Source of the DNA: Aminobacter aganoensis
Lineage (GTDB): Bacteria; Pseudomonadota; Alphaproteobacteria; Rhizobiales; Rhizobiaceae
Direction: 5' to 3'
Assembly (NCBI RefSeq): GCF_014206975.1
Contig: NZ_JACHOU010000007.1
Location: 1-64,000, forward strand
Length of the DNA stretch: 64,000 bases
Below are positions 32,607 through 53,071 of the stretch, piece after piece (position 1 is the first letter of the stretch; every line of letters starts with the position of its first letter). The notes under the pieces are model-generated. The model ran no database searches. It saw only the letters and a program-made list of their open reading frames with translations, and was not told the origin of the DNA. A program made the translations under genes and the position numbers.

Positions 32607-32659
32607 CGCCGCCATGCACGAGACGTCTGCGAACAAAACGGGCGTGGCCTTCCGATGAT

Positions 32660-32682: not shown

Positions 32683-32759
32683 TGTTAGTGGGCTCCCGAC
32701 CCGGCCGGGCAAGAGGCGCTCAAGCCATCGGTCAAATGGTTCGAAGTCGGAGATTCGAG

Positions 32760-33944: not shown

Positions 33945-33955
33945 GAGCAGGTCCG

Positions 33956-34413
<458 letters not shown>

Positions 34414-34417
<4 letters not shown>

Positions 34418-35319: not shown

Positions 35320-35699
35320 CGCTGGGCCTGCCATTGCCGTGAAAACGGGACGGGCGGCGGTCTTCCAGGCTTGCACCGACCGTTCGCGGCAGCGTCCGCG
35401 AGCGGCGGCGTGGCGTGCTCACCTTTCGGTTGCGGCCCGCGCTGTGCCCAATTCGCCACACCCTCCCAACATAGTGCTGCGACAATTCGTGCCGGAGCGA
35501 GACGTCGCGCCGCAGTTAGCGCAGCAGAATCAAACACTAAACATGATAAAAATAGGAAGGTTTTCGTGCGACCCGCCCCGTTTCGCTAAGACATTGGGGT
35601 TGCACGACATTTTTTGAACGCCTAGTGAGCCTGCGTTGCCGTCGTTTCCAAACGGAACCGGCCTGCCAGCGCGAACTGGCGTGAAGAAGAGTGAGCAAG
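35320..35699. other. Gap between tonB and the ECF sigma factor gene
   Basis: This 380-bp stretch has no gene. A 9-bp GC-rich hairpin (35381-35389 with 35396-35404) may end the tonB transcript but lacks a T-run. An A/T-rich block near 35530-35570 contains ATGATAAAAATAGG. This resembles one half of the exbB IRO site (TGATAAAA) without the TCA half, and may be the promoter region of the sigma factor. Confidence 0.4.
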
Positions 35700-36203: not shown

Positions 36204-36309
36204 GCCTGCGACAACATTTATTTTGCCATGACGCTTAGGCGTGGTGCCGTCTCGCTCGTCTATGATAGCAAGATGGTTGGGGTGCCCGTAACAAGCGGGC
36301 ACGTGCTGC

Positions 36310-37290: not shown

Positions 37291-37418
37291 CCCTGACGAA
37301 CTCGCGCCAACTTATTTCAGAAAAAATGCAGACAGCTCTTTAGGCGACGGGCCCCGTCGCGCGTCACACCATCGAAGGCGCTCGGTGGATGGGTGCGCCA
37401 CGCTTTTTGGGGACCAGC

Positions 37419-39722
37419 ATGACGGGCAAGAGCAACAGGGATTTTGGCGGCACGGCGTCGGGGCGCCTGCTGCGGCGGCTTCTGATGGGAACGGCGCTCG
37501 GCGCGGGCATGCTCGTGGCCACCGTGCCATACGCTCCTGCCCAGGCGCAGTCGGCGCAGATGCACAGCATCAACCTGCCGGCGCAGCCGCTGGCGCAGTC
37601 ACTGAAGCAGCTCGCCGCGCAGACCGGCCTGCAGATCGCCTTCGGCACGGCCGACATCGGCTCGGCCCGCGCGCCTGCGGTCTCCGGCAACATTTCCGCC
37701 GAGCAGGCGCTCGGCAGCGTGCTTTCCGGCAGCGGCCTCAGCTACCGCTTCACCGGCCCCAACACGGTGTCGATCCAGTCGGCGGTAGCGAGCGCTTCGA
37801 CCGGCGGCCTCAATATCGCGGCCAATGGCGCGGTCGTCCTGAACACGATCGACATCAACGCCCAGGGCGGCGAAGGCGGGGTCAACAACGTCCAGATCAC
37901 GGCGGAGGACCTGGCGCGGAAAAAGCCGGCCGACCTGCAGGAAGTGTTTGCCGACGAGCCCAAGGTTGCCGTCGGCAGCTCGCTGCCGATGTCGCAGAAG
38001 GTCTATGTCCAGGGCATCGAGGAAACCAACCTTGCGGTGACCGTCGATGGCGCGCGGCAGAACAACAAGGTGTTCCACCACAACGCGACCAACCTGATCG
38101 ATCCGTCGCTGCTCAAGGCCGTCAGCGTCGACGCCGGCGTTGCGCCGGCCGATGCCGGACCAGGCGCGCTGGGCGGCGCGATCGCCTACGAGACCAAGGA
38201 CGCGCGCGACCTGCTGGAGCCGGGCAAGAGCATCGGCGGGCTTGTCACCGGAACCTACGACTTCAACAGCAAGACCCCCACGGTCGGCCTGTCGGCCTAT
38301 GGCATCGAAGGCGGCTTCGAATATTTCGGCTACCTGAACTTTGCCAAGGGCGACAACTTCACCGCCGGCAATGGCAGCGTCATCGACGGCACCAGCGCCA
38401 ACCTGCTGAGCGGTCTGGGCAAGGTTGCCTATCAGGCGGAAAGCGGCCACCGCTTCGAGCTGAGCCACGAGCAGTTGCGCGACGACGCTCCACGTCCGTT
38501 CCGGGCCAACATGGGCAAACTCGTTCCCCCGAAATCCTGGGAACCAGATGTTCGCGACTACACGCTCGACCGAAGCAGCACCGTCTTCACCTATACCGAT
38601 GAGTCGCCTGAAGGATGGTGGGATCCGAAAGTGGTGATCGCCTACACCAGCGCCCGGGTGGAGACGCTGATCTATCCGAGACCGGTGGCCCCAAGCACCG
38701 AGTCCGACACCTATACCGGCGTCGGAAAGACCGAGAGCTTCAACGGCAAGGCGGAAAATCGTTTCGCGCTCGACATGGGCAGCATTACGGCCGGCTTCGA
38801 TTTCTACAAGGACACCGCCGATCTCGAAGACAAGTTCGAACCCGGGACCGAGCATGCCAGCAATGTCGGCCTCTACGCCCAGGCGCGGCTGGAGCCATGG
38901 GAACGGACGCGGCTTTCCTTCGGCGCACGTGGCGACAACCAGTGGTTCGAGGGAGTCACAGGCGAGGAGTGGACCAATGCCGGACTGAGCGGCAACGTCT
39001 CCGGCGAATATGATCTCGTCCCCGATTTCCTGACCGCCAAGGCGGGCTATTCGCATGTCTGGGCCGGTGTGCCGCTGGCGGAAAACTTCAACTTCAATCC
39101 GAACTGGAACTATGGCGACGGGCCGAAGCCGGTGACCTCGGACAACCTCACCGCCGGACTGGTCGCCACCTATCAGGGCTTCACGCTAGAAGCCGGCATC
39201 TTCCGCACCGACATCTACGACGCCCGCTCCGCCCTCTACAAGACCACCGCCTTCGAGGCCCATGATGTCCGTTCCCAGGGCTTCACCCTCAGCGGCGGCT
39301 ACGACTGGGGTTCGGGCCACGCCAGTATCAAGTACGTCAACATCGACGTCACCATCGATGGCAAGCCGGCTGACTCCTACCTCGGCAACTACCTGGTGAC
39401 GCCGGTCGGCCAGATCTTCACGCTGGCGGCGCTTCACCGTTTCGACGACTGGGGCGTGACCGTCGGCGGCGACGTCGAGATCGCCCTCGACTACGACAAG
39501 GTGCCAGCCGGATCACAGAAGATCGAGGGGCATGAGGTGGTCAACGTCTTCATCGAGTACCAGCCGCCGTCGAACCCAAACCTGACCTTCCGCGGCGAGG
39601 TGAAGAACCTGTTCGACGAGGACTACGCCAGCAGGGCAACCTATGGCCAGGAGTTCGGCGACGTCAGGCCGCTGTTGGAGCCGGGCCGGTCGTTCCGCTT
39701 GAGCGCAACCGCAAAGTTCTGA
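37419..39722 (+). CDS. TonB-dependent receptor with N-terminal STN signalling domain (heme-receptor-like or siderophore)
   Basis: The 767-residue outer-membrane receptor has a signal peptide ending APAQAQ, then an STN domain (about 45-130; LPAQPLAQSLKQLAAQTGLQ), which contacts FecR. The plug (about 155-260; VYVQGIEETNLAVTVDGARQ; PGALGGAIAYETKD) and a barrel ending RSFRLSATAKF follow. The plug motifs resemble the heme/hemoglobin receptor group (HasR-like). Its position between ECF/FecR and a petrobactin-type cluster makes a siderophore ligand equally plausible. The start at ATG 37419 has TTGGGGA five bases upstream; ATG 37389 is an alternative. Confidence 0.88.
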   Translation: MTGKSNRDFGGTASGRLLRRLLMGTALGAGMLVATVPYAPAQAQSAQMHSINLPAQPLAQSLKQLAAQTGLQIAFGTADIGSARAPAVSGNISAEQALGSVLSGSGLSYRFTGPNTVSIQSAVASASTGGLNIAANGAVVLNTIDINAQGGEGGVNNVQITAEDLARKKPADLQEVFADEPKVAVGSSLPMSQKVYVQGIEETNLAVTVDGARQNNKVFHHNATNLIDPSLLKAVSVDAGVAPADAGPGALGGAIAYETKDARDLLEPGKSIGGLVTGTYDFNSKTPTVGLSAYGIEGGFEYFGYLNFAKGDNFTAGNGSVIDGTSANLLSGLGKVAYQAESGHRFELSHEQLRDDAPRPFRANMGKLVPPKSWEPDVRDYTLDRSSTVFTYTDESPEGWWDPKVVIAYTSARVETLIYPRPVAPSTESDTYTGVGKTESFNGKAENRFALDMGSITAGFDFYKDTADLEDKFEPGTEHASNVGLYAQARLEPWERTRLSFGARGDNQWFEGVTGEEWTNAGLSGNVSGEYDLVPDFLTAKAGYSHVWAGVPLAENFNFNPNWNYGDGPKPVTSDNLTAGLVATYQGFTLEAGIFRTDIYDARSALYKTTAFEAHDVRSQGFTLSGGYDWGSGHASIKYVNIDVTIDGKPADSYLGNYLVTPVGQIFTLAALHRFDDWGVTVGGDVEIALDYDKVPAGSQKIEGHEVVNVFIEYQPPSNPNLTFRGEVKNLFDEDYASRATYGQEFGDVRPLLEPGRSFRLSATAKF

Positions 39723-39732
39723 ACCCGGTGGC

Positions 39733-39751
39733 CACGGGCCTTGCCCGTGGT
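39733..39751 (+). terminator. Hairpin after the receptor gene
   Basis: An 8-bp stem CCACGGGC/GCCCGTGG with a 3-base loop starts 11 bp after the receptor stop codon. The T-run is weak (CATTT), so it may reduce rather than stop transcription into the DUF2218 gene. Confidence 0.4.
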
Positions 39752-39788
39752 GCCCATTTGGCATCAACGACGGACAGGGAACGAAACC

Positions 39789-40073
39789 ATGGTTCAATCG
39801 TCGGGCAGGTTCGAAACCGAACATGGCGCCAAGTACCTGACCCAGCTCTGCAAGCACTTCGCGCACAAGATCGAGGTGTCCCATGCCGATCGGCGCGGCG
39901 AATGCCATTTCCCGTTCGGCCATGCCGTGCTGGAAGCCGACGACGCTGCGCTGACCATCGAGCTGGACGCACCCGATGCCGACCAGTTGGCTCGAACCAA
40001 GTCTGTGATCGACGACCATCTCGCCCGCTTCGCCTTCCGCGAGCCCGGGCGTGCCATCCAGTGGAGTGCCTGA
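39789..40073 (+). CDS. DUF2218 family protein
   Basis: The 94-residue cytoplasmic protein begins MVQSSGRFETEHGAKYLTQL. The conserved HFAHKIEV and the region ADRRGECHFPFGHAVLEAD are the hallmark of DUF2218 proteins. Their biochemical role is not established, but such genes often sit beside TonB receptors and siderophore uptake genes. GGGA precedes the ATG. It lies between the receptor and the siderophore genes, so it may act in handling the incoming ferric ligand. Confidence 0.75.
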   Translation: MVQSSGRFETEHGAKYLTQLCKHFAHKIEVSHADRRGECHFPFGHAVLEADDAALTIELDAPDADQLARTKSVIDDHLARFAFREPGRAIQWSA

Positions 40074-40090
40074 GGCCAGCCTTCGTTCTC

Positions 40091-40105
40091 CGATAAAATC
40101 CGTCA
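40091..40105. promoter_or_regulatory. Degenerate IRO-like site upstream of asbA
   Basis: CGA-N9-TCA (40091-40105) differs from the IRO consensus TGA-N9-TCA at one base and shares GATAAAA-N3-GTCA with the site in front of exbB. It lies 53 bp upstream of asbA. It is a possible iron-regulated operator for the siderophore operon. Confidence 0.4.
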
Positions 40106-40158
40106 GATACCTAGCTGCTGCAAGGCATTCGGTCGGTCCAACCACATGGTGACGACAG

Positions 40159-41940
40159 ATGAAGCTCACGCCGCGGCAGGTTGCCGAACATGCGACGTTC
40201 CAGAATTTCGCGAACTGCTATGTCCGTGAAATCTCGCCCGGCAGGGTGACCCAGCACAGGGGCGGAGCCGAGGATCCCGTCGATTGCATCGAGTGGGTGC
40301 TGGCGGCCCAGCAACTTGTGCTCCGCGCCGAGCTTGTGTCGCATTCCCGCTGCGGGCCGCACCGCTTCGGCCAGACCTGGGTCCGCCGGGCGACCGACGC
40401 CGGCTGGCGTCACAGCGAGCCGTTCGCGGCACTGCAGCTGTTGCTGCACGAAGCCTACAGGCAGTTGCACGACGAGCGCAGCGATGCCATGCGCGGCTGC
40501 GAACTCGAACTGCTCGGCCGGGCACTGCAGAGCTACCAGCAGACGCTGCGCTACATCGAAGCGCATGGTGCCGCTACGGAGGACGACAGCTTCATCGCTG
40601 CCGAACAGTCGCTGGTGTTCGGGCACTCGCTGCACCCGACGCCGAAGAGCCGGCAAGGCATGACGTCGTGGCAAGAGCCGAGCTACGCCCCCGAGCTGCA
40701 CGGCAGGTTCCAGCTCGTCTATTTCGCCGCCGATGCCTCTGTCGTCAGCCACAAGTCGGCAGCCGCCGAGACCGCGCCGGAGATCGTCGCTGCGCTGGCA
40801 GGCGCCGGCGAAATCGAAACGCGGCCCGGCGAGATGCTGTTGCCGATGCACCCGCTGCAGGCCGAAGCGCTGCTGCTCGATGACGGCGTGCGCGATCTGG
40901 TGGCCGCCGGCAAGCTCAGGCTCGCCGGTGCCGCCGGCCCTGCCTTCACGGCGACGTCTTCGGTGCGCACGGTCTACAACGAAGACCTGCCGTGGATGCT
41001 CAAGTTCTCGCTGCCGGTGCGCATCACCAATTCGCTCAGGGTCAACAGCCGCAAGGAGCTGGAAGCGGGTGTCGCCGTGGCCAAGCTGCTCGGGCGGACG
41101 GGCATCGGCAGCGGCGACAGCCGTTTCAAGGTGATCGCCGACCCGGCCTACATCACCCTCGACCTTCCCGGCCGCTGCGAAAGCGGCTTCGAGGTGATCC
41201 TGCGCGAGAACCCGTTCGTCGCCTGCGGGGGGCGCGGCAAGATCACCATCGCCGCACTCACCGCCGAGCCGCTGCCGGGCCAACAGTCGCGGCTGGAGCG
41301 GATCATCAGGGCGCTGTGCCTGCGCGACGGAACGCATCCGGAACTGGTCTGCAAGCACTGGTTCCAGCGCTATCTCGACTGCGCGCTCGACCCGCTGGTG
41401 TCGCTCTACGACGACTTCGGGCTGGCACTGGAGGCGCACCAGCAGAACAGCCTGCTCGACGTCAGCCAGGGCTATCCGAGCGCCAGCTACTACCGCGACA
41501 ACCAGGGCTTCTACCTCTCCAAGCGATACCGCGCCCGCTTCAGCCTGCATGTGCCGGAAGCTGCCGAGATCGCCTCGCTCTATTATGACGACCGCGACAT
41601 CCAGGACCGCTTCGCCTACTACCTTGTCGTCAACCAGATCTTCTCGGTCATCGCCCGCATGGGGCATGACGGCCTGATCGACGAAGAGGTGCTGCTGCGC
41701 CTGCTGCGCGACCGCCTGGAGGTGTTGTCGCGCACGACCAGTGCCGTCGGCCGCGAATTCGTCCGCGGCGTGCTCGACCGCCCGACGGTGGCTTTCAAGG
41801 CCAATCTGATGACGCGGCTGTTCGACGTCGACGAGTTGCAGACCAGCAACGAGCGTTCACTCTACGCCCGCCAGCCCAACCCGCTCTTCGCCGCCATCGC
41901 CGGCCTCTATCACGGAGACGGCAGTGCCCTTGCCTCTTGA
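40159..41940 (+). CDS. asbA: Petrobactin-type NIS siderophore synthetase AsbA
   Basis: The 593-residue IucA/IucC-family enzyme is expected to condense citrate with spermidine (or an aroylated spermidine) using ATP. Similarity to AsbA, as I recall that protein, is strong along the chain: AEHATFQNFANCY at residue 9, EQSLVFGHSLHPTPKSRQG (about 150), LLPMHPLQAEALLL, TATSSVRTVYN, FEVILRENPF, LEAHQQNSLLD and YYRDNQGFYLS. It is the first gene of a six-step biosynthetic operon. The next gene overlaps its end by 17 bases. Confidence 0.9.
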   Translation: MKLTPRQVAEHATFQNFANCYVREISPGRVTQHRGGAEDPVDCIEWVLAAQQLVLRAELVSHSRCGPHRFGQTWVRRATDAGWRHSEPFAALQLLLHEAYRQLHDERSDAMRGCELELLGRALQSYQQTLRYIEAHGAATEDDSFIAAEQSLVFGHSLHPTPKSRQGMTSWQEPSYAPELHGRFQLVYFAADASVVSHKSAAAETAPEIVAALAGAGEIETRPGEMLLPMHPLQAEALLLDDGVRDLVAAGKLRLAGAAGPAFTATSSVRTVYNEDLPWMLKFSLPVRITNSLRVNSRKELEAGVAVAKLLGRTGIGSGDSRFKVIADPAYITLDLPGRCESGFEVILRENPFVACGGRGKITIAALTAEPLPGQQSRLERIIRALCLRDGTHPELVCKHWFQRYLDCALDPLVSLYDDFGLALEAHQQNSLLDVSQGYPSASYYRDNQGFYLSKRYRARFSLHVPEAAEIASLYYDDRDIQDRFAYYLVVNQIFSVIARMGHDGLIDEEVLLRLLRDRLEVLSRTTSAVGREFVRGVLDRPTVAFKANLMTRLFDVDELQTSNERSLYARQPNPLFAAIAGLYHGDGSALAS

Positions 41941-43636
41941 CCTGCCGGGGCGCCCGGACGAGCGCGTCGTCAGGCAACTTGTCGAGGCCGTGCTGTTCGA
42001 AAAGCTTATCGCGGCAACGATTGCCGAGGACGGCGACCAGCTTGCCTTCTCATGGTCGCATGAGGGCAAGCGCTTTCGCTGCGCCGGCGTCGAAGGCGCG
42101 TTCAGCCGCATCCGCATCGCGCCGGGTTCGGTCGAGAGCGAAGGATGCGACGGCACCTGGCGCCCGGCTGCGCTGGACGAGCTGGTCGGGAGCCTGCCGG
42201 CATCCGCGGACGACAGGCGCCGGCTGCTCGGCGAGTTGCAGAGCACGCTTGCCCATTGCAGCTGGAACGACCGCAACCTGCCACAGCGCGCCCGCCGCGA
42301 TCTCGGCTTCGCCGCACTCGAAGGCGCGCTGCACGAAGGCCATGCCTACCATCCCTGCTTCAAGGCGCGGACAGGGTTCAGCGAAAGCGACCATCGCGAC
42401 TTCGGACCCGAAGGCGGCAACAGCTTCCAGCTCGCCTGGCTGCTGGTGCGGCGCGAAGAGGTGAACCAGCGCCTGCCCGTCGACGAAGCGACCTTCTGGA
42501 CCGGCGAGCTTGGCGCGGAGACCTTCGCCCGGATAGAGAAGCGTCGCTCCGAGCTGGACCTGGGCCGGGACGAGTTCGCGCTGCTGCCGCTGCATCCCTG
42601 GCAGTGGACGGCGCTGAAGGACACGCTGCTGGCGCCATGGCTGGCGGACGGGACGGCCCATTTCGCCGGCATTTCGGGCGACCGCTACACGGCGAGCCAG
42701 TCGATCCGGACATTGCTCAATGCCGACCGGCCCGAGGCGGCGAACGTCAAGCTGTCGATGAACATGAGCAACTCGTCGTCGCTGCGGACGATCGAGCCGC
42801 ATTCGGTGTGCACGGCGCCGGTGATCTCATGCTGGCTGGGCGACATCGTCGCCGGCGACCCGCTGTTCCGGACCGCCTACCCGCTGACGGTGCTCGACGA
42901 ATATGCCGGCATCATCGCCGGCCGCGACGGCCCGCTCGCCGGGCAGCTCGCCGCGATCTGGCGCCGCAGCGTCAGCTCGGTGCTCGGCGAAGGCGAACAG
43001 GCGGTGCCGTTCAACGCGCTGATGACGATCGAGCATGACGGCAAGCCGTTCATCGACGAGTGGGTCCGCCGCCACGGCTTCCGTGCCTGGCTCGGTCAGC
43101 TGTTGCAGGTCGCCATCCTGCCGGTGTGGCACCTGCTGGTCGGGCACGGCATCGCCACCGAGGCGCATGGCCAGAACATGGTGCTCGTCCACCGCGACGG
43201 CTGGCCGGTCCGACTGGTGCTGCGCGACTTTCACGACAGCGTCGAATACGTGCCCCACTTCCTGCGCGACCCCGGCAAGGTGCCCGACTTCCTGGCGCTC
43301 GACCCGGCTTATCGCGAGGCCCTTCCCGACCAGTACTACTGGATGGAGGACGTCGAGACGCTCGGCGAACTGGTGACGGACGCGCTGTTCGTCTTCAACA
43401 TGGCCGAGATCTCGCACCTGCTGCAGACCCATTACGGACTGCGCGAGGCCGATTTCTGGAAAACGGTCCGGCACATGCTGTCCGACTATGCCGCCGGCCA
43501 CGGCGTGGCCGCGCGCCAGGCGCAGCTCGGCCTCGCCCGCCCAGAGATCGCCGCCGAGGCGCTGCTTGCCCGCAAGCTCAACATCGGCCGTTCGAGCCAC
43601 GTCGTTTCCAACACCCTCTCCACCGCCCACGCCTGA
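41924..43636 (+). CDS. asbB: Petrobactin-type NIS siderophore synthetase AsbB
   Basis: The 570-residue second IucA/IucC-family enzyme would couple the second spermidine arm to the citrate intermediate. Family motifs are KARTGFS (about 144), LPLHPWQWTALKD, YTASQSIRTLLN, KLSMNMSNSSSLRTIEP and HGQNMVLVHRDGWPVRLVLRDFHD (in two parts; the last gives metal and ATP-site residues). It starts with GTG at 41924 inside the end of asbA, with GGAGA six bases upstream, so the two synthetases are translationally coupled. Confidence 0.9.
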   Translation: MPLPLDLPGRPDERVVRQLVEAVLFEKLIAATIAEDGDQLAFSWSHEGKRFRCAGVEGAFSRIRIAPGSVESEGCDGTWRPAALDELVGSLPASADDRRRLLGELQSTLAHCSWNDRNLPQRARRDLGFAALEGALHEGHAYHPCFKARTGFSESDHRDFGPEGGNSFQLAWLLVRREEVNQRLPVDEATFWTGELGAETFARIEKRRSELDLGRDEFALLPLHPWQWTALKDTLLAPWLADGTAHFAGISGDRYTASQSIRTLLNADRPEAANVKLSMNMSNSSSLRTIEPHSVCTAPVISCWLGDIVAGDPLFRTAYPLTVLDEYAGIIAGRDGPLAGQLAAIWRRSVSSVLGEGEQAVPFNALMTIEHDGKPFIDEWVRRHGFRAWLGQLLQVAILPVWHLLVGHGIATEAHGQNMVLVHRDGWPVRLVLRDFHDSVEYVPHFLRDPGKVPDFLALDPAYREALPDQYYWMEDVETLGELVTDALFVFNMAEISHLLQTHYGLREADFWKTVRHMLSDYAAGHGVAARQAQLGLARPEIAAEALLARKLNIGRSSHVVSNTLSTAHA

Positions 43637-43647
43637 AGGGAAAATCG

Positions 43648-44916
43648 ATGCTCCAGATCGACGACAGGTACTACGACCGACAGAAATTCGAGCAGATGGT
43701 GGCGGAAAGCGCCGACAGGGCCAGCCTCGACGCGAATGCGCGCTACGCCGTGTGCTTCACTGATACCGCCGGCTGGCTGGCGCTGTTCTTCGCCATCCGC
43801 GACATCGGCGCCAGCGTCTTCCCGATCCATCCTGCGACGCCGCACCCCGCGGCGCGCCGGCTGGCTGCCGCCGCAGGCTGCCACGCGCTGTATTTCAACA
43901 GCCTCGAAGCGGAGAGCCTGTCGGCCGAGATCGAGCCGGCCTCGCAGGGCCAGCTCTTGCAGATGAGCTCCGGCACCACGGGTGCGCCGAAATGCATCGC
44001 GCGAAGCTGGGCCGATATCGACGCCGAGGTGGCGAGCTATGCCGCGACGTTCCGCCAGCCCGAGGAGATGACGCCGGTCATCGCCTGCCCGACGACGCAT
44101 TCCTACGGCCTGATCTGCGGCATACTGGTGGCGCTCAAGCGCGGCCGCACGCCCGTCGTCGTCGATGCCGGCAATCCGAAATACCTGCTGCGGATCTTGC
44201 GCGACATCGAGCGGCCTCTGCTCTACTCGTCGCCGGCGGTGCTGCACACGCTGGCGCGGCTGATGCCCGAGGGCGAGACGCTGCACGCGGCCATGACCTC
44301 GGGCACGGTTCTGCCCGAACCGTGGTTCGCGCGCATCCGGGCCCGCACGACGCATCTGTTCCAGCAATATGGCTGCTCGGAAACCGGCTGCATCGCGGTC
44401 AATCCCGACGTCACCGACGCGGCCGACATGGGTTTCGTGCTGCCGCACCACGTTGTTACCTGCAGCAACAGCGCGGTCGCGCCGTCCGAGATGATCGTCA
44501 GCGGACCGGCCGGCGAGATCGCGACCCGAGACCTCGGCTATTTCCGGCCCGACGGCATGCTGGTGTTCGTCTCCCGCCTCGACGACACCATCAATGTCTC
44601 CGGCCTCAACGTCTATCCGCGCGAGGTCGAGGACGTGGTGATGTCAATGCCTTCGGTCACCGACGCCGTCGCCTTCCGCAAGACGGACACGCTGGCGGGC
44701 GAACGGGTCGGCCTGCTGTTCAGCGCCAGCGAACGGCTGGACGGCCCGGCCGTGCGGCAGTGGTGCGCCCGCAACCTCGCCAGCCACCAGCTGCCGATGG
44801 AAATCGTCCAGGTCGACGCGATCCCGCGCCAGGCCAACGGCAAGATCAGCCGCCGCGAGGTGGCGGCGCAGCATGCAGCGGGACAGTTCACGGCCTTGGT
44901 GAGGGAGGTCGCGTGA
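43648..44916 (+). CDS. asbC: 3,4-dihydroxybenzoate-AMP ligase AsbC
   Basis: The 422-residue adenylate-forming enzyme activates 3,4-dihydroxybenzoate for loading onto the aryl carrier domain of the next gene product. The core motif MSSGTTGAPK is at 106-115. Further motifs are QQYGCSETG, GYFRPDG with VSRLDDTINVSGLNVYPREVE (hinge region) and the catalytic lysine in QANGKISRRE near the end. It is shorter than typical adenylating enzymes, as AsbC is. GAAGGG precedes the ATG. Specificity for 3,4- rather than 2,3-dihydroxybenzoate is inferred from the adjacent asbF. Confidence 0.88.
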   Translation: MLQIDDRYYDRQKFEQMVAESADRASLDANARYAVCFTDTAGWLALFFAIRDIGASVFPIHPATPHPAARRLAAAAGCHALYFNSLEAESLSAEIEPASQGQLLQMSSGTTGAPKCIARSWADIDAEVASYAATFRQPEEMTPVIACPTTHSYGLICGILVALKRGRTPVVVDAGNPKYLLRILRDIERPLLYSSPAVLHTLARLMPEGETLHAAMTSGTVLPEPWFARIRARTTHLFQQYGCSETGCIAVNPDVTDAADMGFVLPHHVVTCSNSAVAPSEMIVSGPAGEIATRDLGYFRPDGMLVFVSRLDDTINVSGLNVYPREVEDVVMSMPSVTDAVAFRKTDTLAGERVGLLFSASERLDGPAVRQWCARNLASHQLPMEIVQVDAIPRQANGKISRREVAAQHAAGQFTALVREVA

Positions 44917-46217
44917 TGAATACCGAACAAGCGATCGAGGCGATCCACACGGTCCTGCGCGACCACATGAACCATGCCCATCTCGACCGGTTCGGCCCCG
45001 AGGCGCGGCTCAACGAGGACCTCTATCTCGACTCGGTGCTGATCCTCGAGATCTTCCTCACCCTGGAACTGGAGTTTGGCCTGCCGGCGCCGGAGGAGGC
45101 GATCAACCGCCAGGACATCGAGACGGTGCGGGATCTTGCGCAACTGTTCACCGGCGAAGCCAGCGTCGCTGCGGCGCGTCCCGAGCCGGCCGGCGAAGGC
45201 GTGCATGGCGAGGACTACATCGACATCAAGGTGCACTGCTTCGTCAGCAGCGTCTGCGACGCGCTGAAGCGCTCAGGCATCGACCAGCGGCCGTTCTATT
45301 TCAGCGTCTGGGACGCCGGCTTCGCCATCACCGACAAATGGCAGCTCGCCTATCACGACAAGTCGATCACCCACGGCTTCTTCCGCGCCTGGTACGAACG
45401 GCTCTACGGCGTGGCCATGCATGAATGGTATGACCCGGCGCGGTCGAAGGACCAGAACCTGGTCACCATGCTCGACCTGCTCGAACGCAAGCGCGACAGC
45501 GAATACCTGATGGTGATGCTCGACCTGTTCCACCTGCCGGAGCGGGAGAACAAGTTCAACCAGAACCCCTTCCCGCACTATCTGATGATCGAAAAGACCG
45601 ACGATCCGAAGATATGGCAGGTCAACGATCCCGACTTCCGCTGGGAAGGCCGGATCGCGCGCGACAAGGTCATCCATGCCATCCGCCAGCCGACCGTCGG
45701 CGGCGGCTACATCTTCGACCGGCTGGAGGCGCGAAAACCCGCAGCCAGCGACCTGCGCGACTTCTTCCTCGCCTGCTACCGGCCCGATCACAATCCCCTG
45801 GTCGACGGCGTGCACAGCATCGTCTCGGCCCATCTCGAAGGACGCGACGGCGTCAAGCTCGCCGATCTCGGCGCAGCGTTGCGCGAGGTGCCGGTGATCT
45901 CGATCCGCAAATACGCCTACGAGCACGGCTTCGCCTTCTTCTGGCGCGAAATGAAGCTCGCCAATGCCGATTTCGACCATTGGTGCGACGAGATCGAGCG
46001 CGTGATCCAGGAGTTCAAGGCGCTGCACTACGCCGTCATGAAGCTCGCCCAGACCGGCGACCGCAGCCTGGCCGACGACGTCTTCCGCCGCTTGGACACG
46101 CTGGACGGGCTGGAGAAGCGGATAAAGGGCAGGCTCGGCGAGGCCTTCGAAGCCTGGTGCGCGACGAACGGCATCCCGCACACAATTCCCAGCGAATTGC
46201 TGGGAGCAGCCGAATGA
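44916..46217 (+). CDS. asbDE: Fused aryl carrier protein and aroyl-spermidine condensing enzyme (AsbD-AsbE)
   Basis: The 433-residue protein joins two functions that are separate in Bacillus anthracis. Residues 1 to about 78 form an acyl/aryl carrier domain with the phosphopantetheine Ser40 in LYLDSVLILE. After a short Pro/Glu/Gly linker (about 79-93), residues about 95-433 resemble AsbE, which transfers the aroyl group from the carrier to spermidine (PFYFSVWDAGFAITDKWQLAYHD in two parts; LFHLPERENKFNQNPFPHYL in two parts; YEHGFAFFWREMKL). Its start overlaps the asbC stop (TGATG), and GGGAGG lies just upstream. The fusion would hold the thioester next to the transferase. Confidence 0.88.
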   Translation: MNTEQAIEAIHTVLRDHMNHAHLDRFGPEARLNEDLYLDSVLILEIFLTLELEFGLPAPEEAINRQDIETVRDLAQLFTGEASVAAARPEPAGEGVHGEDYIDIKVHCFVSSVCDALKRSGIDQRPFYFSVWDAGFAITDKWQLAYHDKSITHGFFRAWYERLYGVAMHEWYDPARSKDQNLVTMLDLLERKRDSEYLMVMLDLFHLPERENKFNQNPFPHYLMIEKTDDPKIWQVNDPDFRWEGRIARDKVIHAIRQPTVGGGYIFDRLEARKPAASDLRDFFLACYRPDHNPLVDGVHSIVSAHLEGRDGVKLADLGAALREVPVISIRKYAYEHGFAFFWREMKLANADFDHWCDEIERVIQEFKALHYAVMKLAQTGDRSLADDVFRRLDTLDGLEKRIKGRLGEAFEAWCATNGIPHTIPSELLGAAE

Positions 46218-47059
46218 AGATCTCGCTCTGCACCATCACCTTTCGCCACCACCTCGCCTCGCTCGAGGACATCGCCAGATGGGCCCGCGCCAATGACTTC
46301 CAGGGCATCGAGTTGTGGGGCGTGCATGCCCGCAACCTCGCCTATCAGCCGCATCGCGATGCCGACTGGCTCGCCGGGCTCGGGCTCTACGTGCCGATGG
46401 TCAGCGACTACCTGCCGCTCGAGGGCGATGCCGAGGCGCTGCGCACCAAGGCCGTCGACCTGTGCCGGCTCGCCCGGAACTGGCGGGCGGGCAAGATCCG
46501 CACCTTCGCCGGCAGCCGCGGCAGCCGGGACACGCCGGCCGAGGTCAGGCGCATCATCACAGCAAGGCTGCGCGAAATGTCCGCGATCGCCGCCGATTTC
46601 GGCCTGGAACTGCTGGCCGAGACGCATCCGGGGACGCTTGCCGATTGCGGCTCGTCGACGCTGAGGCTGATCGCCGAGGTCGACCATCCGGCGTTCAAGC
46701 TCAACTTCGACACGTTGCATGTCTGGGAGGGCGGGGACGATCCCGTCGCCGCCCATGCCGCGATGCGGCCGCATATCCGCCACTACCACCTCAAGAACGT
46801 GCGCTCGCGCGCCGATCTGCGCGTGTTCGAGCCGGCCAATGTCTACGCCGCCGCCGGCAACCGCGAAGGCATGACGCCGCTGTTCGACGGCAAGGTCGAC
46901 TACCGGCGCTTCCTCGCCGAGCTGCGCGACGACGCTATGGCCGAAGCCTCGCTCGAATGGTTCGGCAATGATTGCTTCAACGTCCTGCGCAGCGACCGGC
47001 AGGCAATAAAGCGACTTAAGAGTCGCGATGAAGTCTTGTTGCGCACGGGCAGCTTCTGA
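46214..47059 (+). CDS. asbF: 3-dehydroshikimate dehydratase AsbF
   Basis: This 281-residue TIM-barrel enzyme converts 3-dehydroshikimate to 3,4-dihydroxybenzoate (protocatechuate), the catechol of petrobactin. It is close to Bacillus AsbF (280 residues): SLCTITFRHHLAS at the start, GIELWGVHARNL, MVSDYLPL, KIRTFAGSRGS, ETHPGTLAD, LNFDTLHVWE, HYHLKNV, VYAAAGNREGM and ASLEWFGND, which include the expected metal ligands and catalytic residues. It overlaps asbDE by four bases. The last 16 codons contain an inverted repeat, GCGACT/AGTCGC (47011-47026). Confidence 0.93.
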   Translation: MKISLCTITFRHHLASLEDIARWARANDFQGIELWGVHARNLAYQPHRDADWLAGLGLYVPMVSDYLPLEGDAEALRTKAVDLCRLARNWRAGKIRTFAGSRGSRDTPAEVRRIITARLREMSAIAADFGLELLAETHPGTLADCGSSTLRLIAEVDHPAFKLNFDTLHVWEGGDDPVAAHAAMRPHIRHYHLKNVRSRADLRVFEPANVYAAAGNREGMTPLFDGKVDYRRFLAELRDDAMAEASLEWFGNDCFNVLRSDRQAIKRLKSRDEVLLRTGSF

Positions 47060-47064
47060 TATGT

Positions 47065-47084
47065 GCCAAAGAAGAGTATTTGGC
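47065..47084. promoter_or_regulatory. Inverted repeat between asbF and the uptake genes
   Basis: GCCAAA-N8-TTTGGC (47065-47070/47079-47084) lies in the 72-bp gap after asbF, about 50 bp before the binding-protein gene. It could be an operator or a processing hairpin that separates biosynthesis from uptake. No known consensus matches. Confidence 0.3.
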
Positions 47085-47131
47085 GAAGGATTTATCGATC
47101 CAACGCCGATGGCACGAGACGGAGACACGAG

Positions 47132-48037
47132 ATGAAGTATGTTCGGCTGCTGGCCAACCTTGCAGCGGCGCTGGCGATCGCCACCGCACCTGCCATGGCC
47201 GTGGAAATCACCACCGCGACCGGTCCGAAGACCATCGACAAGGTGCCGGCCAGGATCGCCGTCTACGACATCGCCGCAATCGACACGCTGACCCGCATCG
47301 GCGTGCAGCCGGCAGGTGTCCCCGACAAGCTGTTCGTTCCTGAACTGGCCGATGTCGCCAAGAACGCCACCGTCGTCGGCACGCTGTTCGAACCGGACCT
47401 TGAAGCGCTGAACGCACTCGCGCCCGATCTGGTGATCGTCGGCGGCCGCTCGTCGACGCAGGTCGAGGCAACGTCGCGCGTCGCCCCCACCATCGACATG
47501 ACGATGGCTGGCGACGATCTCGTGGCCCAGGCCAAGGCGCGCCTGGCCGCCTATGGCGACCTCTTCGCCAAGCCCGACGAAGCCGCCGCCGCGGCGAAGG
47601 AACTGGACGCCGCCGTCGAAGCAGCCAGGCAGGCCGTGAAAGGCAAGGGCAAGGCGCTGATCCTGATGACCAACGGCCCGAAGATCACCGCCTATGGCCC
47701 GGGATCACGCTTCGGCTGGGTGCACAAGACGCTCGACCTCGAACCCGCCGTCGCCGATGTCGAGAGCGCGACCCATGGCGAGGCGATCTCGTTCGAGTTC
47801 ATCAGCAAGGCCAACCCGGACTGGCTGCTCGTGCTCGACCGCGCCGCAGCCATCGGCTCGGGCGACCAGGGCGCCAAGGCCACGCTCGACAACGAACTGG
47901 TGGCGCAGACGACCGCGTGGAAGAAGGGCCAGGTGGTGTTCCTGCCGTCACAGGATTTCTACATCGCCGCCGGCGGCGTGCAGTCGACGCACCGCGTGCT
48001 CTCGACCATCGAACAAGCCTTCGCCAAGGCGAAGTGA
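47132..48037 (+). CDS. Siderophore ABC transporter periplasmic binding protein (FatB/YclQ/CeuE type)
   Basis: The 301-residue periplasmic protein has a Sec signal peptide ending APAMA, then a helical-backbone siderophore-binding fold: RIAVYDIAAIDTLTRIGV, LEALNALAPDLVIVGGRSS, LMTNGPKITAYGPGSRFGW and AAGGVQSTHRVL. The family includes the Bacillus petrobactin receptors YclQ and FatB and Campylobacter CeuE, all binding catecholate or mixed ferric ligands. GGAGA precedes the ATG at 47132. It follows asbF directly, so it probably returns ferric petrobactin-like siderophore to the cell. Confidence 0.9.
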   Translation: MKYVRLLANLAAALAIATAPAMAVEITTATGPKTIDKVPARIAVYDIAAIDTLTRIGVQPAGVPDKLFVPELADVAKNATVVGTLFEPDLEALNALAPDLVIVGGRSSTQVEATSRVAPTIDMTMAGDDLVAQAKARLAAYGDLFAKPDEAAAAAKELDAAVEAARQAVKGKGKALILMTNGPKITAYGPGSRFGWVHKTLDLEPAVADVESATHGEAISFEFISKANPDWLLVLDRAAAIGSGDQGAKATLDNELVAQTTAWKKGQVVFLPSQDFYIAAGGVQSTHRVLSTIEQAFAKAK

Positions 48038-49002
48038 TGCCTGCGGCAGTGCCAAACGCCCGGCTTGTGGTCGCCACCGGCCTCGTCGGGCTGTTTGCGC
48101 TGAGCCTGTGCATCGGCGTCGACGACATGTCGCTGGACAGGATCGGAACCAATGCGGGGGCGTTGCAGCTCCTGCTCGTCAGCCGCCTGCCGAGAACGGT
48201 GGCGGTGGTGCTCACCGGCGCAGGCCTGGCTATTGCCGGGCTCGTGCTGCAGATACTGGTGCGCAACCGCTTCGTCGAGCCGATCACCACCGGCACGGGC
48301 CAGAGCGCCGCATTGGGCGTGCTCGCCGTGACGCTGCTGTTTCCGACCGCGTCGATCGGGGCGAAGACCCTCGCCGCCAGCGCGACCGCGCTTGCCGGCA
48401 CGTCGATCTTCCTCGCCATCGCGCACAAGCTGCCGCCGACGCAACCTTTCCTCATCCCGCTGTTCGGCCTCGTCTATGGCGGCGTCATCGGCGCGGCGGT
48501 GACCTTCATCGCCTGGCAGACCGACCTGCTGCAATATGTCGACGTCTGGACCAATGGCGAATTTTCCGGCGTGCTGCGCGGCCGCTACGAGCTTCTGTGG
48601 ATCCTCGCTGCCATGGTGGCGCTGGCGTGGTGGGTGGCCGACCGGCTGACCATCGCCTCGATGGGCCGCGAGGTCAGCGTCGGGCTCGGCCTCGACTACC
48701 AACGCATCGTGCAGCTCGGCCTCGTCATGGTGGCGGTGATCTCGTCGCTGGCGGTGGTCGTGGTCGGCATGATCCCGTTCGTCGGCCTGGTGGTGCCGAA
48801 CCTCGTCTCCAGGTTGATGGGCGACAATCTGAAAAGCGCCCTGCCCTGGGTGGCCGTCACCGGCGCAACCCTGCTGCTGGCCTGCGACATCATCGGCCGC
48901 GTCATCCGCTACCCCTATGAAATTCCCGTCGGCACCGTGCTCGGCGTCGTCGGCTCGGGGCTGTTCCTGTGGATCCTGTTCGGGCGGACGCAACGTGCCT
49001 GA
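48037..49002 (+). CDS. Siderophore ABC transporter permease (YclN/FatD-like)
   Basis: The 321-residue FecCD-family permease has about nine to ten helices and motifs RLPRTVAVVLTGAGLAIAGLVLQ, NRFVEPITTGTGQSAALG and GMIPFVGLVVPNLVSRLMG. It forms the membrane channel with the next permease. Its ATG overlaps the stop codon of the binding-protein gene (TGATG). Confidence 0.9.
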   Translation: MPAAVPNARLVVATGLVGLFALSLCIGVDDMSLDRIGTNAGALQLLLVSRLPRTVAVVLTGAGLAIAGLVLQILVRNRFVEPITTGTGQSAALGVLAVTLLFPTASIGAKTLAASATALAGTSIFLAIAHKLPPTQPFLIPLFGLVYGGVIGAAVTFIAWQTDLLQYVDVWTNGEFSGVLRGRYELLWILAAMVALAWWVADRLTIASMGREVSVGLGLDYQRIVQLGLVMVAVISSLAVVVVGMIPFVGLVVPNLVSRLMGDNLKSALPWVAVTGATLLLACDIIGRVIRYPYEIPVGTVLGVVGSGLFLWILFGRTQRA

Positions 49003-49936
49003 CAAGCGGCTTCTGATCCTCGCCGCCGTGGCGCTGGCCGTGGCGGCCGCCTTCATGACCGTCGGCCTGCGCGGCAATATCGGCTTTGCGCTCGAACTGC
49101 GCGCGGTGCGCCTGCTGACGCTGGTACAGGTCGGCGTGGCGATCGCGATCTCGACGGTGGTGTTCCAGACCGTGACGGCCAACCGGGTGCTGACGCCGCA
49201 GATCATGGGCCTCGACGCGCTCTACCTGTTCGGCCAGATGGCGCTTGTGCTGACGCTCGGCAGCGTCGGTTTCGTCGCGCTCGACCCACGGCTGAAATTC
49301 GCCGGCGAGTCGGTGCTGATGATGGCGATGGCGCTGATGCTGTTCCTGCCGATGCTGCGCCGGCGCTTCGACATCGGGCTGCTGCTTCTGACCGGCGTGG
49401 TGCTCGGCGTGCTGTTCCGCAGCCTCGCCAGCCTTGTGGCGCGGGTGATCGACCCGAACGAATTCGCCGTGGTCCAGGGGTCGAGCTTCGCCGATTTCAA
49501 CACCGTGCGGCCGGACCTGGTGGTCATCGGCCTGATCGTGACGCTCGTCGCCGGTGCCATCATCTGGCGGCTGCGCCACACGCTCGACATCGTCGCGCTG
49601 GGCGCCGACAGCGCCACCGGCCTCGGCGTCGACTGGACCCGGGCGCTGGCCGGCCTGTTGCTGCTGGTCGCCGCACTGGTGGCGGTGTCGACGGCACTGG
49701 TCGGGCCGGTGACGTTCTTCGGGCTGCTGGTGGTGGCGCTGGCCGAGCGCATCGTCGACAGCCGGCGGCACCAGCTGCTGCTGCCTGCCGCGATGCTGAC
49801 GGCGATCATCGTGCTGCTTGGCGGCCAGATTGTTCTGCAGCACGTGCTGGGGGGTGCGGCCACCCTCGGCGTCGTCATCGAATTCGTGGGCGGCCTCGTG
49901 TTCCTGGCCATGCTGATCACAACGAGCAAGCGATGA
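48995..49936 (+). CDS. Siderophore ABC transporter permease (YclO/FatC-like)
   Basis: The 313-residue second FecCD-family permease starts at GTG 48995, inside the end of the previous gene (VPDKRLLILAAVALAVAAAF), since homology and the first helix begin there. Motifs include TVTANRVLTPQIMGLDALY, LGADSATGLGVDW and GPVTFFGLLVVALAE. It has about nine hydrophobic helices. It overlaps the ATPase gene by four bases. Confidence 0.9.
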   Translation: MPDKRLLILAAVALAVAAAFMTVGLRGNIGFALELRAVRLLTLVQVGVAIAISTVVFQTVTANRVLTPQIMGLDALYLFGQMALVLTLGSVGFVALDPRLKFAGESVLMMAMALMLFLPMLRRRFDIGLLLLTGVVLGVLFRSLASLVARVIDPNEFAVVQGSSFADFNTVRPDLVVIGLIVTLVAGAIIWRLRHTLDIVALGADSATGLGVDWTRALAGLLLLVAALVAVSTALVGPVTFFGLLVVALAERIVDSRRHQLLLPAAMLTAIIVLLGGQIVLQHVLGGAATLGVVIEFVGGLVFLAMLITTSKR

Positions 49937-50691
49937 TCGAGATCAAGAATGTTTCGCTGCGCCTCGGCGACACGCAAATCCTGGAAGATGTGTCGCTGAC
50001 GATGCCCAAGGGCGGGCTGACGGCGCTGGTCGGGCCGAACGGCGCCGGCAAGTCAAGCCTGTTGTCGCTGATCGCCCGGCTGCAGCCGCTGCAAAGCGGG
50101 TCCATTTCGGTCGATGGCCTGGCGGTGGACACGACGCCGAGCCGCCGGCTGGCGAAGACACTCGCCATCCTGCGCCAGGACCCTGCCGTGGCGAGCCGGC
50201 TCAAGGTGCGCGAACTGGTCGGCTTCGGCCGCTTTCCGCACCAGCGCGGCCGCATCGACGACAATGATCTGAGGCTGATCGAGGCGGCACTGCAGCAGTT
50301 CGGCCTGACCGATCTCGCCGATCGTTTCCTCGACCATCTGTCGGGCGGCCAGCGCCAGCGCGCCATGGTCGCCATGGCCTTCTGCCAGGGTACCGACTAC
50401 ATGCTGCTCGACGAGCCGCTGAACAATCTCGACATGATGTTTGCCCGCCAGCTGATGCGCGACCTGCGCGCCGCCGCCGACAAGGACAGGCGCACCGTCA
50501 TCGTTGTGCTGCACGACATCAACCACGCCGCCGTCTATGCCGACCGGATCGTGGCGATGAAGGACGGCCGCATCGTCGCCGACGGGCCACCGGCGGAAGT
50601 GCTGCAGCCCGACGTCCTGGCCAAGGTCTTCGGCTACGAGATGGACGTCATCGAGGTCGGCGGTGCGCCGCTGGTGCTGCACCACCGCTGA
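49933..50691 (+). CDS. Siderophore ABC transporter ATPase (YclP-like)
   Basis: The 252-residue ATPase of the iron-siderophore type has Walker A GPNGAGKSSL (about 35-44), Q-loop LRQDPAV, signature LSGGQRQRAMVAMAF, Walker B YMLLDEPLNNLD and H-loop VLHDINHA. It ends the 10.5-kb siderophore synthesis and uptake array. The next gene is convergent, 57 bp away. Confidence 0.93.
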   Translation: MIEIKNVSLRLGDTQILEDVSLTMPKGGLTALVGPNGAGKSSLLSLIARLQPLQSGSISVDGLAVDTTPSRRLAKTLAILRQDPAVASRLKVRELVGFGRFPHQRGRIDDNDLRLIEAALQQFGLTDLADRFLDHLSGGQRQRAMVAMAFCQGTDYMLLDEPLNNLDMMFARQLMRDLRAAADKDRRTVIVVLHDINHAAVYADRIVAMKDGRIVADGPPAEVLQPDVLAKVFGYEMDVIEVGGAPLVLHHR

Positions 50692-50748: not shown

Positions 50749-52230
50749 TCAGAAGGGATAGGCCGGCGGCGCGTTGCGGATGGTCAGCCACTGCCACTGG
50801 GTGAAATCGTCGATGTTGCTCGGGCCGCCAATGCTGGTGCCGTTGCCCGACGCGCCGACGCCACCGAACGGGTTGATCACCTCGTCGTTGACCGTCTGGT
50901 CGTTGATGTGCAGCAGGCCGGCGCGCAGCCGGTCGCCGATCGCCATGGCGCGGCCGATGTCGGGCGAGATCACCGCGGCCGACAGCCCGTATTCGGTGCG
51001 GTTGGCGAGTTCCACCGCCTCGTCGTCGCCGCTGAAGGAGGTGACGCAGGCGACGGGCCCGAAGATTTCCTCCTCGAAGGCGGCCATGCCCGGCTTGACG
51101 CCAGCGAGCACCGACGGTGCGTAGAACAGGTTCTCATAGGTGCCGCCTGCGAGGAGCTGCGCGCCCTGCTCGACAGATGTCTTCACCACCCTGTCGATGT
51201 GATCGAGCTGGGCCTTGTTGATGATCGGACCGAGCGCGACATTGTCGGTCGCCGGGTTGCCGACGGGCAGGCTCTTTGCCTTCTTCGCCAGTGCGTCGAT
51301 GAACGCCTCGAAGATCGGTGCCTCGACGAGAATGCGGCCCGACGACATGCAGATCTGGCCCTGGTGCAGCCAGGCGCCCCAGGCGGCGTTCTTCACCGCC
51401 AGGTCGAGGTCGGCATCCCTGAGGATGACAAGCGTGTTCTTGCCGCCAAGCTCGAGCGACACCTTCTTGAGATGGCGGCTGGCGTTCTCGCCGACGATGC
51501 GGCCAGCCTTGGTCGAGCCGGTGAACTGGATCATGGCGATGTTCGGGTCGGCGACGAGCGCGGCGCCCGCATCGCCGGCACCGGGCAGGACGTGGATGAG
51601 CCCCTCGGGCAGGCCGGCCTTTTCGAACAGCGCGGCGAACACCAGTCCGCCGCATACCGCCGTGCGCGGATCGGGCTTCAGCACCACCGCATTGCCGACG
51701 GCGAGGGCCGGCGCCACCGCGCGCATGGCGAGATAGAGCGGGAAGTTGAACGGCGAGATGACGCCGACGACGCCGAGCGGACGGCGGCGTGCGAGGTTCA
51801 TCCGGCCGGCTTCCGACGGCAGCACGAGACCCTGTGGCTGCGAGGCGAGCGCTGCCGCCTCGTTCAGCGCCTTGATGCTGAGCTGCGTCTCGAATTCGGC
51901 CTTGCCACGGGCCGAACCGCTCTCCCGGACCAGCCATCCGACCACGTCGGCGAAGTGCGCTTCGAGCAGGCCCGCCGCCTTGCGGATCACCGCCGACCGC
52001 GTGTCATAGCTCGCGGCAGCCCAGTCGCGCTGTGCCTTGGCCGCTGTTGCCGATGCCTGAGCGACATCGGCCGGGGATGCCATGCCGATGCGGCCGAGCA
52101 CGGAGCCGGTCGCGGGCTCGATGACGTCGGCTGCCTGCGAGGCGTGCTGCCAGCCGCCGGAATAGACGATCCCGTCGAGGTGCTCGCGCCCGATCAGCCT
52201 GGGCTCACCGGAAGAGACTGTGCCGTCCAT
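50749..52230 (-). CDS. Benzaldehyde dehydrogenase (NAD-dependent), XylC-like
   Basis: This 493-residue aldehyde dehydrogenase oxidises an aromatic aldehyde, probably benzaldehyde, to the acid used by the ben genes upstream. Motifs are GVISPFNFPLYLAMRAVAPALA (in part), FTGSTKAGR, the catalytic Glu in LELGGKN and the catalytic Cys in GQICMSSGRI. The C-terminal VNDEVINPFGG and TQWQWLTIR are typical of benzaldehyde dehydrogenases. I chose ATG 52230 because GGAG lies seven bases upstream; it overlaps the end of pcaD by 26 bases. It is the last gene of the leftward operon. Confidence 0.85.
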   Translation of the reverse strand: MDGTVSSGEPRLIGREHLDGIVYSGGWQHASQAADVIEPATGSVLGRIGMASPADVAQASATAAKAQRDWAAASYDTRSAVIRKAAGLLEAHFADVVGWLVRESGSARGKAEFETQLSIKALNEAAALASQPQGLVLPSEAGRMNLARRRPLGVVGVISPFNFPLYLAMRAVAPALAVGNAVVLKPDPRTAVCGGLVFAALFEKAGLPEGLIHVLPGAGDAGAALVADPNIAMIQFTGSTKAGRIVGENASRHLKKVSLELGGKNTLVILRDADLDLAVKNAAWGAWLHQGQICMSSGRILVEAPIFEAFIDALAKKAKSLPVGNPATDNVALGPIINKAQLDHIDRVVKTSVEQGAQLLAGGTYENLFYAPSVLAGVKPGMAAFEEEIFGPVACVTSFSGDDEAVELANRTEYGLSAAVISPDIGRAMAIGDRLRAGLLHINDQTVNDEVINPFGGVGASGNGTSIGGPSNIDDFTQWQWLTIRNAPPAYPF

Positions 52231-53071
52231 CTTGTCGCTCCTTGTCATATGCACGCGGCCTTGGGCCGCCCTGTTCGGCGGCGGGGAGCCGCTGGGAAAG
52301 AAAATCGCGCAGCAGGCCGGACACGTCGCCCGGACGCTCAATGCACGGCAAATGGCCGGCACCGGCAATGGTGCGGAAGGCCGCTGCGGGTATTCGCCGC
52401 GCCGTGTCGGCGACAAGTTCAGGCGGCGTCGACAGGTCCTCGTCGCCGGCGATGACCAGCGTCGGGGCAACAATCCTTGCGATCGCGCCGGTCAGGTCGG
52501 CGTCGCGCAGCGCCCTGCAGGTGTCGGCGTATCCTTTGGCCGGAGTGCGCTCAAGCATCCGCTGCCAGCCGGCGAAGGCGTCGGGTTCGGCGTCGCGGTA
52601 GGCGAACGAAAACCAGCGCTCCATGATCTGGTCGCCGATGGCCGCCACTCCTTGGTGCAGCACCGCCTCGATGCGGGCGTTCCATGCCTCCGGCGTGCCG
52701 ATCCTGGCCGCCGTATCCATAAGCACCAGCCTGGTCACCCGTTCCGGCGCGCGGACCGCCATGTCCATGGCGATCAGCCCGCCTACGGAAAGCCCGCAGA
52801 CGGCCGCGCTGCCCCAGCCGACATGGTCGAGCAGGCCGGCAAGGTCGTCTGCGTGGTCGGCAATGCCGCGAGGCGCGGGCGCGACCTCGCTCAGCCCGTG
52901 ACCGCGCTTGTCGTAGAAGAGCAGGTCGAAATCGCGGCCGAGTTCGTCGGCGACATCGTCCCAGATCGCCAGGTCGGAGCCGAGCGAATTGGCGAAGACG
53001 ATCCTCGGCCCGGCGCTGCGGCCAAGGCGACGATAGTGGAGGACGACACCGTTGGTTCTAGCGAAGGACAT
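52205..53071 (-). CDS. pcaD: 3-oxoadipate enol-lactonase
   Basis: The 288-residue alpha/beta hydrolase opens 3-oxoadipate enol-lactone to 3-oxoadipate in the beta-ketoadipate pathway. It has the family motifs FANSLGSDLAIWD, YDKRGHGLSE, nucleophile elbow CGLSVGGLIAMD, the acid in IAGDEDLSTPP and His in AGAGHLPCIE. The C-terminal 25 residues are basic and polar and overlap the aldehyde dehydrogenase start. It lies 10 bp after livF-like. It fits the catechol branch, but catB and catC, which link it to catA, are not in the window. Confidence 0.9.
   Translation of the reverse strand: MSFARTNGVVLHYRRLGRSAGPRIVFANSLGSDLAIWDDVADELGRDFDLLFYDKRGHGLSEVAPAPRGIADHADDLAGLLDHVGWGSAAVCGLSVGGLIAMDMAVRAPERVTRLVLMDTAARIGTPEAWNARIEAVLHQGVAAIGDQIMERWFSFAYRDAEPDAFAGWQRMLERTPAKGYADTCRALRDADLTGAIARIVAPTLVIAGDEDLSTPPELVADTARRIPAAAFRTIAGAGHLPCIERPGDVSGLLRDFLSQRLPAAEQGGPRPRAYDKERQDGRHSLFR

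Follow-up and report, generated by a model that had tools for sequence, protein, structure and literature searches.

The 64,000-nucleotide stretch of the Aminobacter aganoensis genome analysed here (the window; positions 1 to 64,000 of contig NZ_JACHOU010000007.1, assembly GCF_014206975.1) carries a complete Asb siderophore synthesis and uptake locus. Its core extends exactly from the start of asbA at 40159 to the end of an ABC transporter ATPase gene at 50691, with all genes on the plus strand. We propose with high confidence that this is an iron-starvation locus, which makes and re-imports a siderophore of the petrobactin family assembled from citrate, 3,4-dihydroxybenzoate (3,4-DHB) and a triamine. 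The kind of locus is largely known, as the same cluster has been published in rhizobia and in Aminobacter. The locus as such adds little; its interest lies in one chemical question, the identity of the triamine. The gene content of the genome leads us to lean towards unacetylated homospermidine.

Gene content and order, the identity of the domains and the conservation of catalytic columns can be read directly from the locus, as can its phylogenetic place from the comparison with related loci. The matches of AsbF, AsbB and AsbC point to Asb proteins and not to other families of nonribosomal-peptide-synthetase-independent siderophore (NIS) enzymes. For AsbF (predicted 3-dehydroshikimate dehydratase yielding 3,4-DHB, 281 aa, 46214–47059; Pfam AP_endonuc_2) the top solved structure is AsbF itself (3dx5, E 5.5e-73), the next entry standing at 7.2e-05. 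The alignment with 3dx5 keeps columns E142, H144, D172, H198 and K200 as well as the SLEWFG glutamate, which we take to be the metal and catalytic residues of AsbF. AsbB (NIS synthetase, 570 aa, 41924–43636; IucA_IucC, PF04183, and FhuF, PF06276) finds AsbB (3to3) as its top solved match (319 bits), ahead of DesD (163) and IucC (152), which rules out the desferrioxamine and aerobactin enzymes. AsbC (predicted 3,4-DHB adenylating enzyme, 422 aa, 43648–44916; Pfam AMP-binding) scores 549 bits with NCBIfam PRK08308, presumably the AsbC model, above its cut-off of 513. The assignment to the petrobactin type made in a first-pass annotation of the DNA, as opposed to aerobactin or another NIS system, thus holds. 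AsbA (NIS synthetase, 593 aa, 40159–41940) has the same two domains as AsbB, PF04183 and PF06276, with motifs HPLQ, SVRT and HQQN.

The two remaining activities would reside in one 433-aa frame (44916–46217), an AsbD-AsbE fusion (AsbDE) of an aryl carrier domain and a DUF6005 ligase. Residues 1-78 have the AsbD model PRK07639 as top match (E 1e-17, 64.4 bits against a cut-off of 100) and contain the LDS motif, and residues 103-422 match DUF6005 (PF19468) with 488 bits, a model that PMC11317620 treats as that of asbE. The first-pass annotation had listed six Asb functions; six activities are indeed predicted, with coordinates and order as given there, but because AsbD and AsbE form one polypeptide there are only five biosynthetic genes (asbA, asbB, asbC, asbDE and asbF). 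The fusion is no novelty. It is found in 80/80 of the related loci compared, and PMC11317620 describes it, in the text available, for the rhodopetrobactin, roseobactin and methylolanthanin loci. The set, whose loci reach no further than 10 kb to either side, comprises the best 80 of 101 found by similarity to the AsbF of the window, so that distant members are under-sampled.

AsbB and AsbC, separate in the window, are fused as well in 15/80 loci, with 2/80 not judgeable (fused: L018, L023, L029, L042, L054, L058, L060, L062, L066, L067, L069, L075, L077, L081 and L082). The fusions occur in four Shinella loci and in the Methylobacterium/Methylorubrum group; since these stand apart on the tree described below, the fusion may have arisen independently in the two.

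Directly behind asbF, as the first-pass annotation had it, lie genes for a FatB/YclQ-type periplasmic binding protein (47132–48037; Pfam Peripla_BP_2), two FecCD-type permeases (48037–49002 and 48995–49936; both PF01032) and the ABC transporter ATPase (49933–50691; PF00005, ABC_tran). Among structures in the PDB the binding protein matches 8bf6 best (200 bits), followed by YclQ (3gfv, 159 bits); Vibrio anguibactin FatB (7sf6), at 91 bits, is ruled out as its nearest kin. Four plus-strand genes immediately upstream of asbA extend the locus beyond the first-pass description. They encode a FecI-type extracytoplasmic function sigma factor (170 aa, 35691–36203; Pfam Sigma70_r2 and r4_2), a FecR-type anti-sigma factor (326 aa, 36310–37290; Pfam FecR and DUF4880; 90% identity in A. 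niigataensis locus L004), a TonB-dependent receptor with an STN signalling domain (777 aa, 37389–39722; Pfam STN, Plug and beta-barrel) and a DUF2218 protein of the mllG family (94 aa, 39789–40073; PF09981, 106 bits). The latter two are the positional equivalents of Sinorhizobium fredii FprA and c14010. A DUF2218 gene is present in 62/80 related loci and a counterpart of the receptor (at least 45% identity over 60% of its length) in 43/80. As the top NCBIfam model of the receptor, a haemoglobin/transferrin receptor subfamily, reaches 168.5 bits against a cut-off of 323.75, its ligand is read from its position only.

By analogy with homologues, every reaction, transport and regulatory step can be given a likely place. 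AsbF would convert 3-dehydroshikimate to 3,4-DHB, which AsbC would adenylate and load onto the AsbDE carrier domain. Transfer of 3,4-DHB to the triamine would fall to the AsbE part, and AsbA and AsbB would join two such 3,4-DHB-triamine arms to citrate. The ferric complex would enter through the TonB-dependent receptor, be bound by the periplasmic protein and cross the inner membrane by means of the two permeases and the ATPase. FecI and FecR probably signal from the receptor.

Petrobactin proper needs spermidine, the triamine of the Bacillus compound. Searches of the window's genome (5.76 Mb in 52 contigs, 100% complete by a completeness tool) recovered a supply of homospermidine and no clear spermidine route. 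A homospermidine synthase of 481 aa matches 4plp with 818 bits, although no NCBIfam model matches it. Homology searches of this genome found no S-adenosylmethionine (AdoMet) decarboxylase and no NspC-type decarboxylase; the best nspC match, 28 bits against a cut-off of 409, falls in a protein that is lysA by NCBIfam (495 bits, cut-off 298). There is a SpeE-like protein, with 29-30 bits in Pfam (cut-off 22.9) and, for the best of four NCBIfam aminopropyltransferase models, 33 of 472 bits. A saccharopine-dehydrogenase-like protein passes its Pfam cut-off with 83 bits, while NCBIfam comparison gives it no name; carboxyspermidine dehydrogenase (CASDH) belongs to this kind (PMC13293326). According to the accessible text of the same paper, most rhizobia make no spermidine, and spermidine-free rhizobia are without the casdh-casdc operon. 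An MllH-type acetyltransferase has no match in the 64-kb window, and genome-wide the best hit reaches 33% over 98 residues (26 bits). Because homospermidine synthase is present while AdoMet decarboxylase, NspC and a close MllH-type protein are absent, the predicted product is an unacetylated bis-homospermidine petrobactin, C36H54N6O11, with a calculated [M+H]+ of 747.39 as against 719.36 for petrobactin. By the same arithmetic rhodopetrobactin B comes to 831.4135, and the part of PMC13251462 available prints 831.4228.

Other asb genomes share the genotype. Homospermidine synthase, nspC and AdoMet decarboxylase (SpeE and CASDH being outside the search) were compared in the genomes of 50 of the 80 loci, hand-picked for spread. 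Homospermidine synthase occurs in 43/50 (fragmented in G054). A full-length nspC match of at least 387 bits occurs in 15/50, six of them above the curated cut-off of 409 and the next match being 39 bits; AdoMet decarboxylase occurs in 4/50. All seven genomes lacking the synthase have an nspC match. Thirty-three of the 50, S. fredii USDA 205 and A. niigataensis DSM 7050 (L004) included, have homospermidine synthase and neither an nspC match nor AdoMet decarboxylase. Rhodopseudomonas (R. faecalis) and three Methylorubrum genomes are among these 33, a genotype that agrees with the homospermidine in products of those genera, though from other species. The MllH-type acetyltransferase, sought within the loci and genome-wide in the window's genome alone, lies in 13/80 loci, in the Methylobacterium/Methylorubrum group, Nitrobacter and Rhodopseudomonas. 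It is present in the locus of 7 of these 33 genomes and absent from that of the other 26. S. fredii USDA 205 and three Aminobacter belong to the 26, to which the window's genome adds one more.

These data incline us, on balance, to the view that much of the "petrobactin" of rhizobia is not petrobactin. The asb genomes that have homospermidine synthase as their only polyamine marker and no MllH-type gene near the cluster would make the unacetylated bis-homospermidine compound, and their receptor and binding protein would be adapted to that compound. If so, it would be a misnomer to call the rhizobial siderophore petrobactin, and the structure of the siderophore would be set by the polyamine pathway of the host and not by changed asb gene content. 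That pathway would then perhaps also set who shares or steals the siderophore in soil and nodules.

Two other products have to be weighed. The strain could make petrobactin itself, with two spermidines, as in Bacillus and Marinobacter, from spermidine that is taken up or comes from a pathway not recognised in the genome. The complete Asb set and the FatB/YclQ-type transporter would suit such a product, as would the SpeE-like and saccharopine-dehydrogenase-like proteins, and the S. fredii papers name their product petrobactin (PMC8822346, PMC12815270). In S. fredii, by its methods section, PMC8822346 measured the siderophore by chrome azurol S (CAS) assay only, and in the main text of PMC12815270, as far as available, neither "spermidine" nor "mass spectrometry" occurs. 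A literature search for petrobactin with homospermidine and for petrobactin with Ensifer and mass spectrometry, in which subscription journals lay mostly outside the scope, found in the texts available no recognised structure of the rhizobial product. Against bis-spermidine petrobactin stand the two decarboxylases not found in the genome and the strong homospermidine synthase. So does the chemistry of relatives: the accessible text of PMC11317620 gives the arms of methylolanthanin as acetylated homospermidine, established by nuclear magnetic resonance, and has rhodopetrobactin and methylolanthanin differ by the hydroxybenzoate. The Rhodopseudomonas and Methylorubrum genomes of our set, from species other than the strains studied, likewise carry homospermidine synthase but lack both spermidine markers. 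We therefore regard petrobactin itself as a tentative second candidate. The first-pass description of a complete petrobactin-type array accordingly stands for the Asb synthesis and uptake locus, whereas petrobactin as the product is in doubt, the searches having shown no clear pathway to spermidine. Rhodopetrobactin B, whose homospermidine arms are acetylated, would also draw on the homospermidine synthase, and its locus has the AsbDE fusion and the DUF2218 gene in common with the window. The lack of the MllH-type acetyltransferase, which the 13 loci named above possess, makes this product very improbable here.

Several observations weigh against an unacetylated homospermidine siderophore, or against the assignment of the locus more generally. 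The spermidine-synthase-like protein does pass its Pfam cut-off, though it is far below the four NCBIfam cut-offs, and a protein of the CASDH kind is present. The absence of a spermidine pathway is a result of homology searches in an assembly of 52 contigs. Uptake of spermidine, an overlooked gene or strict selectivity of AsbA might each suffice to overturn the homospermidine prediction. The AsbD model scores below its curated cut-off, the top family model of the receptor is of the haemoglobin/transferrin kind, though also below cut-off, and the locus in this strain is known from its sequence.

The first-pass annotation had considered, besides horizontal transfer, an unrecognised siderophore family in a rhizobial-type genome. 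An unrecognised find is not supported, since PMC8822346, in the text available, describes fprA-c14010-asbABCDEF-fatBDCE in S. fredii CCBAU45436 and A. aminovorans KCTC 2477 and counts Asb in 245 alphaproteobacterial genomes. Relatives of petrobactin are reported from Rhodopseudomonas and Methylorubrum (PMC11317620; PMC13251462 describes rhodopetrobactin B in Methylorubrum extorquens PA1, with Rhodopseudomonas palustris CGA009 as comparison). The window matches the fprA-asb-fat membership of Rhizobiales, with receptor, DUF2218, asb and fat genes in one order together with FecI and FecR; by the account of PMC8822346 the S. fredii and A. aminovorans cluster has the same genes in the same order and FecI/FecR in the locus. 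That source also reports that asbA of S. fredii CCBAU45436 is required for siderophore overproduction by a rirA mutant in the CAS assay and that the operon is under RirA and FecI regulation. In S. fredii USDA 205 the locus (L025) follows the gene order of the window and likewise fuses AsbD to AsbE; its Asb parts are 56-68% identical to those of the window. The Bacillus asb operon shares all six predicted activities, and its solved AsbF and AsbB are the closest structures. It differs in having separate AsbD and AsbE (PMC11317620; models of 91 and 327 positions) and, as far as PMC8822346 is available, in having no outer-membrane receptor. The rhodopetrobactin locus of Rhodopseudomonas and the methylolanthanin (mll) locus of Methylorubrum share with the window the AsbDE fusion and the DUF2218 (noted for both loci in the accessible text of PMC11317620), sigma/anti-sigma and receptor genes. 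Genomes related to their producers have a homospermidine synthase, as the window's genome does. The window differs in having no acetyltransferase, and mll-type loci differ in a fused AsbB-AsbC.

The cluster has a patchy distribution in Alphaproteobacteria and shows no sign of having arrived recently. A quick tree of the six concatenated Asb parts, covering the window and 77/80 loci (L059, L082 and L083 left out; no Bacillus or Marinobacter rows) and supported by the Shimodaira-Hasegawa-like approximate likelihood ratio test (SH-aLRT) only, places the window inside an Aminobacter set (SH-aLRT 100). Beside it stands Kumtagia, and both lie within a 15-row Phyllobacteriaceae set with Mesorhizobium (98); the nearest loci are those of A. 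niigataensis, A. ciceronei and A. carboxidus. The guanine-plus-cytosine (G+C) content of the cluster equals that of the remaining window, with no compositional break. AsbDE is found in 6/10 genomes of the genus and, at E 1e-60, in 29/297 genomes and 15/109 genera of the family. AsbDE also occurs in 71 plasmid records, of which 47 are from Phaeobacter and 9 from Ensifer. A foreign island recently acquired from Bacillus or Marinobacter would fit this patchiness and the plasmid copies in other genera, and horizontal transfer has been proposed (PMC8822346). The nesting within Aminobacter, then Kumtagia, then the Mesorhizobium set, on a tree of the rows given above, and the even composition make such an island highly improbable. 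The earlier suggestion of an unusual, horizontally transferred cluster is thus borne out in part: the available text of PMC8822346 calls it rare in other rhizobia and argues for transfer, and it is patchy here, but the data lend no support to a recent transfer into this genome, since on that tree the Asb proteins nest in Aminobacter and the G+C content matches the window. A minus-strand aldehyde dehydrogenase gene (50749–52473) adjoins the end of the operon. At E 1e-150 it is limited to 2/10 genus genomes, the window's and G005, so a flank test by means of this gene comes without an empty-site comparison.

The whole order from receptor to ATPase recurs in at least 15/80 related loci, S. fredii USDA 205 among them, a lower bound given the 10-kb limit on each side. 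Nine Mesorhizobium-type loci (L034, L036, L037, L039, L040, L041, L043, L045 and L047) have a rearranged cluster, in which the receptor, DUF2218 and fat genes follow downstream of asbF but on the other strand. On a Pararhizobium plasmid, genes for a sigma factor, FecR, a receptor and DUF2218 and asbA-B-C-DE-F are arranged as in the window, with no fat genes directly behind.

The motif TGA-N9-TCA, which we take to be the IRO-box or RirA-box, occurs 20 times in the window, where 9.4 matches would be expected, and 0/100 shuffles reach that number. Exact matches are absent from 34179-36072 and 36088-46002, and none lies directly upstream of fecI or fprA. A second iron-uptake array lies upstream on the plus strand (26926–35319), with genes for a TonB-dependent receptor, a binding protein, a FecCD permease, an ATPase, DUF6925, ExbB, ExbD and TonB. 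Within it an IRO-box-like sequence, TGATAAAAGAAGTCA (32664–32678), stands three bases ahead of the exbB frame at 32682. Farther upstream, a single minus-strand frame (16446–18527) joins a polysaccharide-deacetylase-like domain to an OHCU decarboxylase domain and presumably serves purine breakdown.

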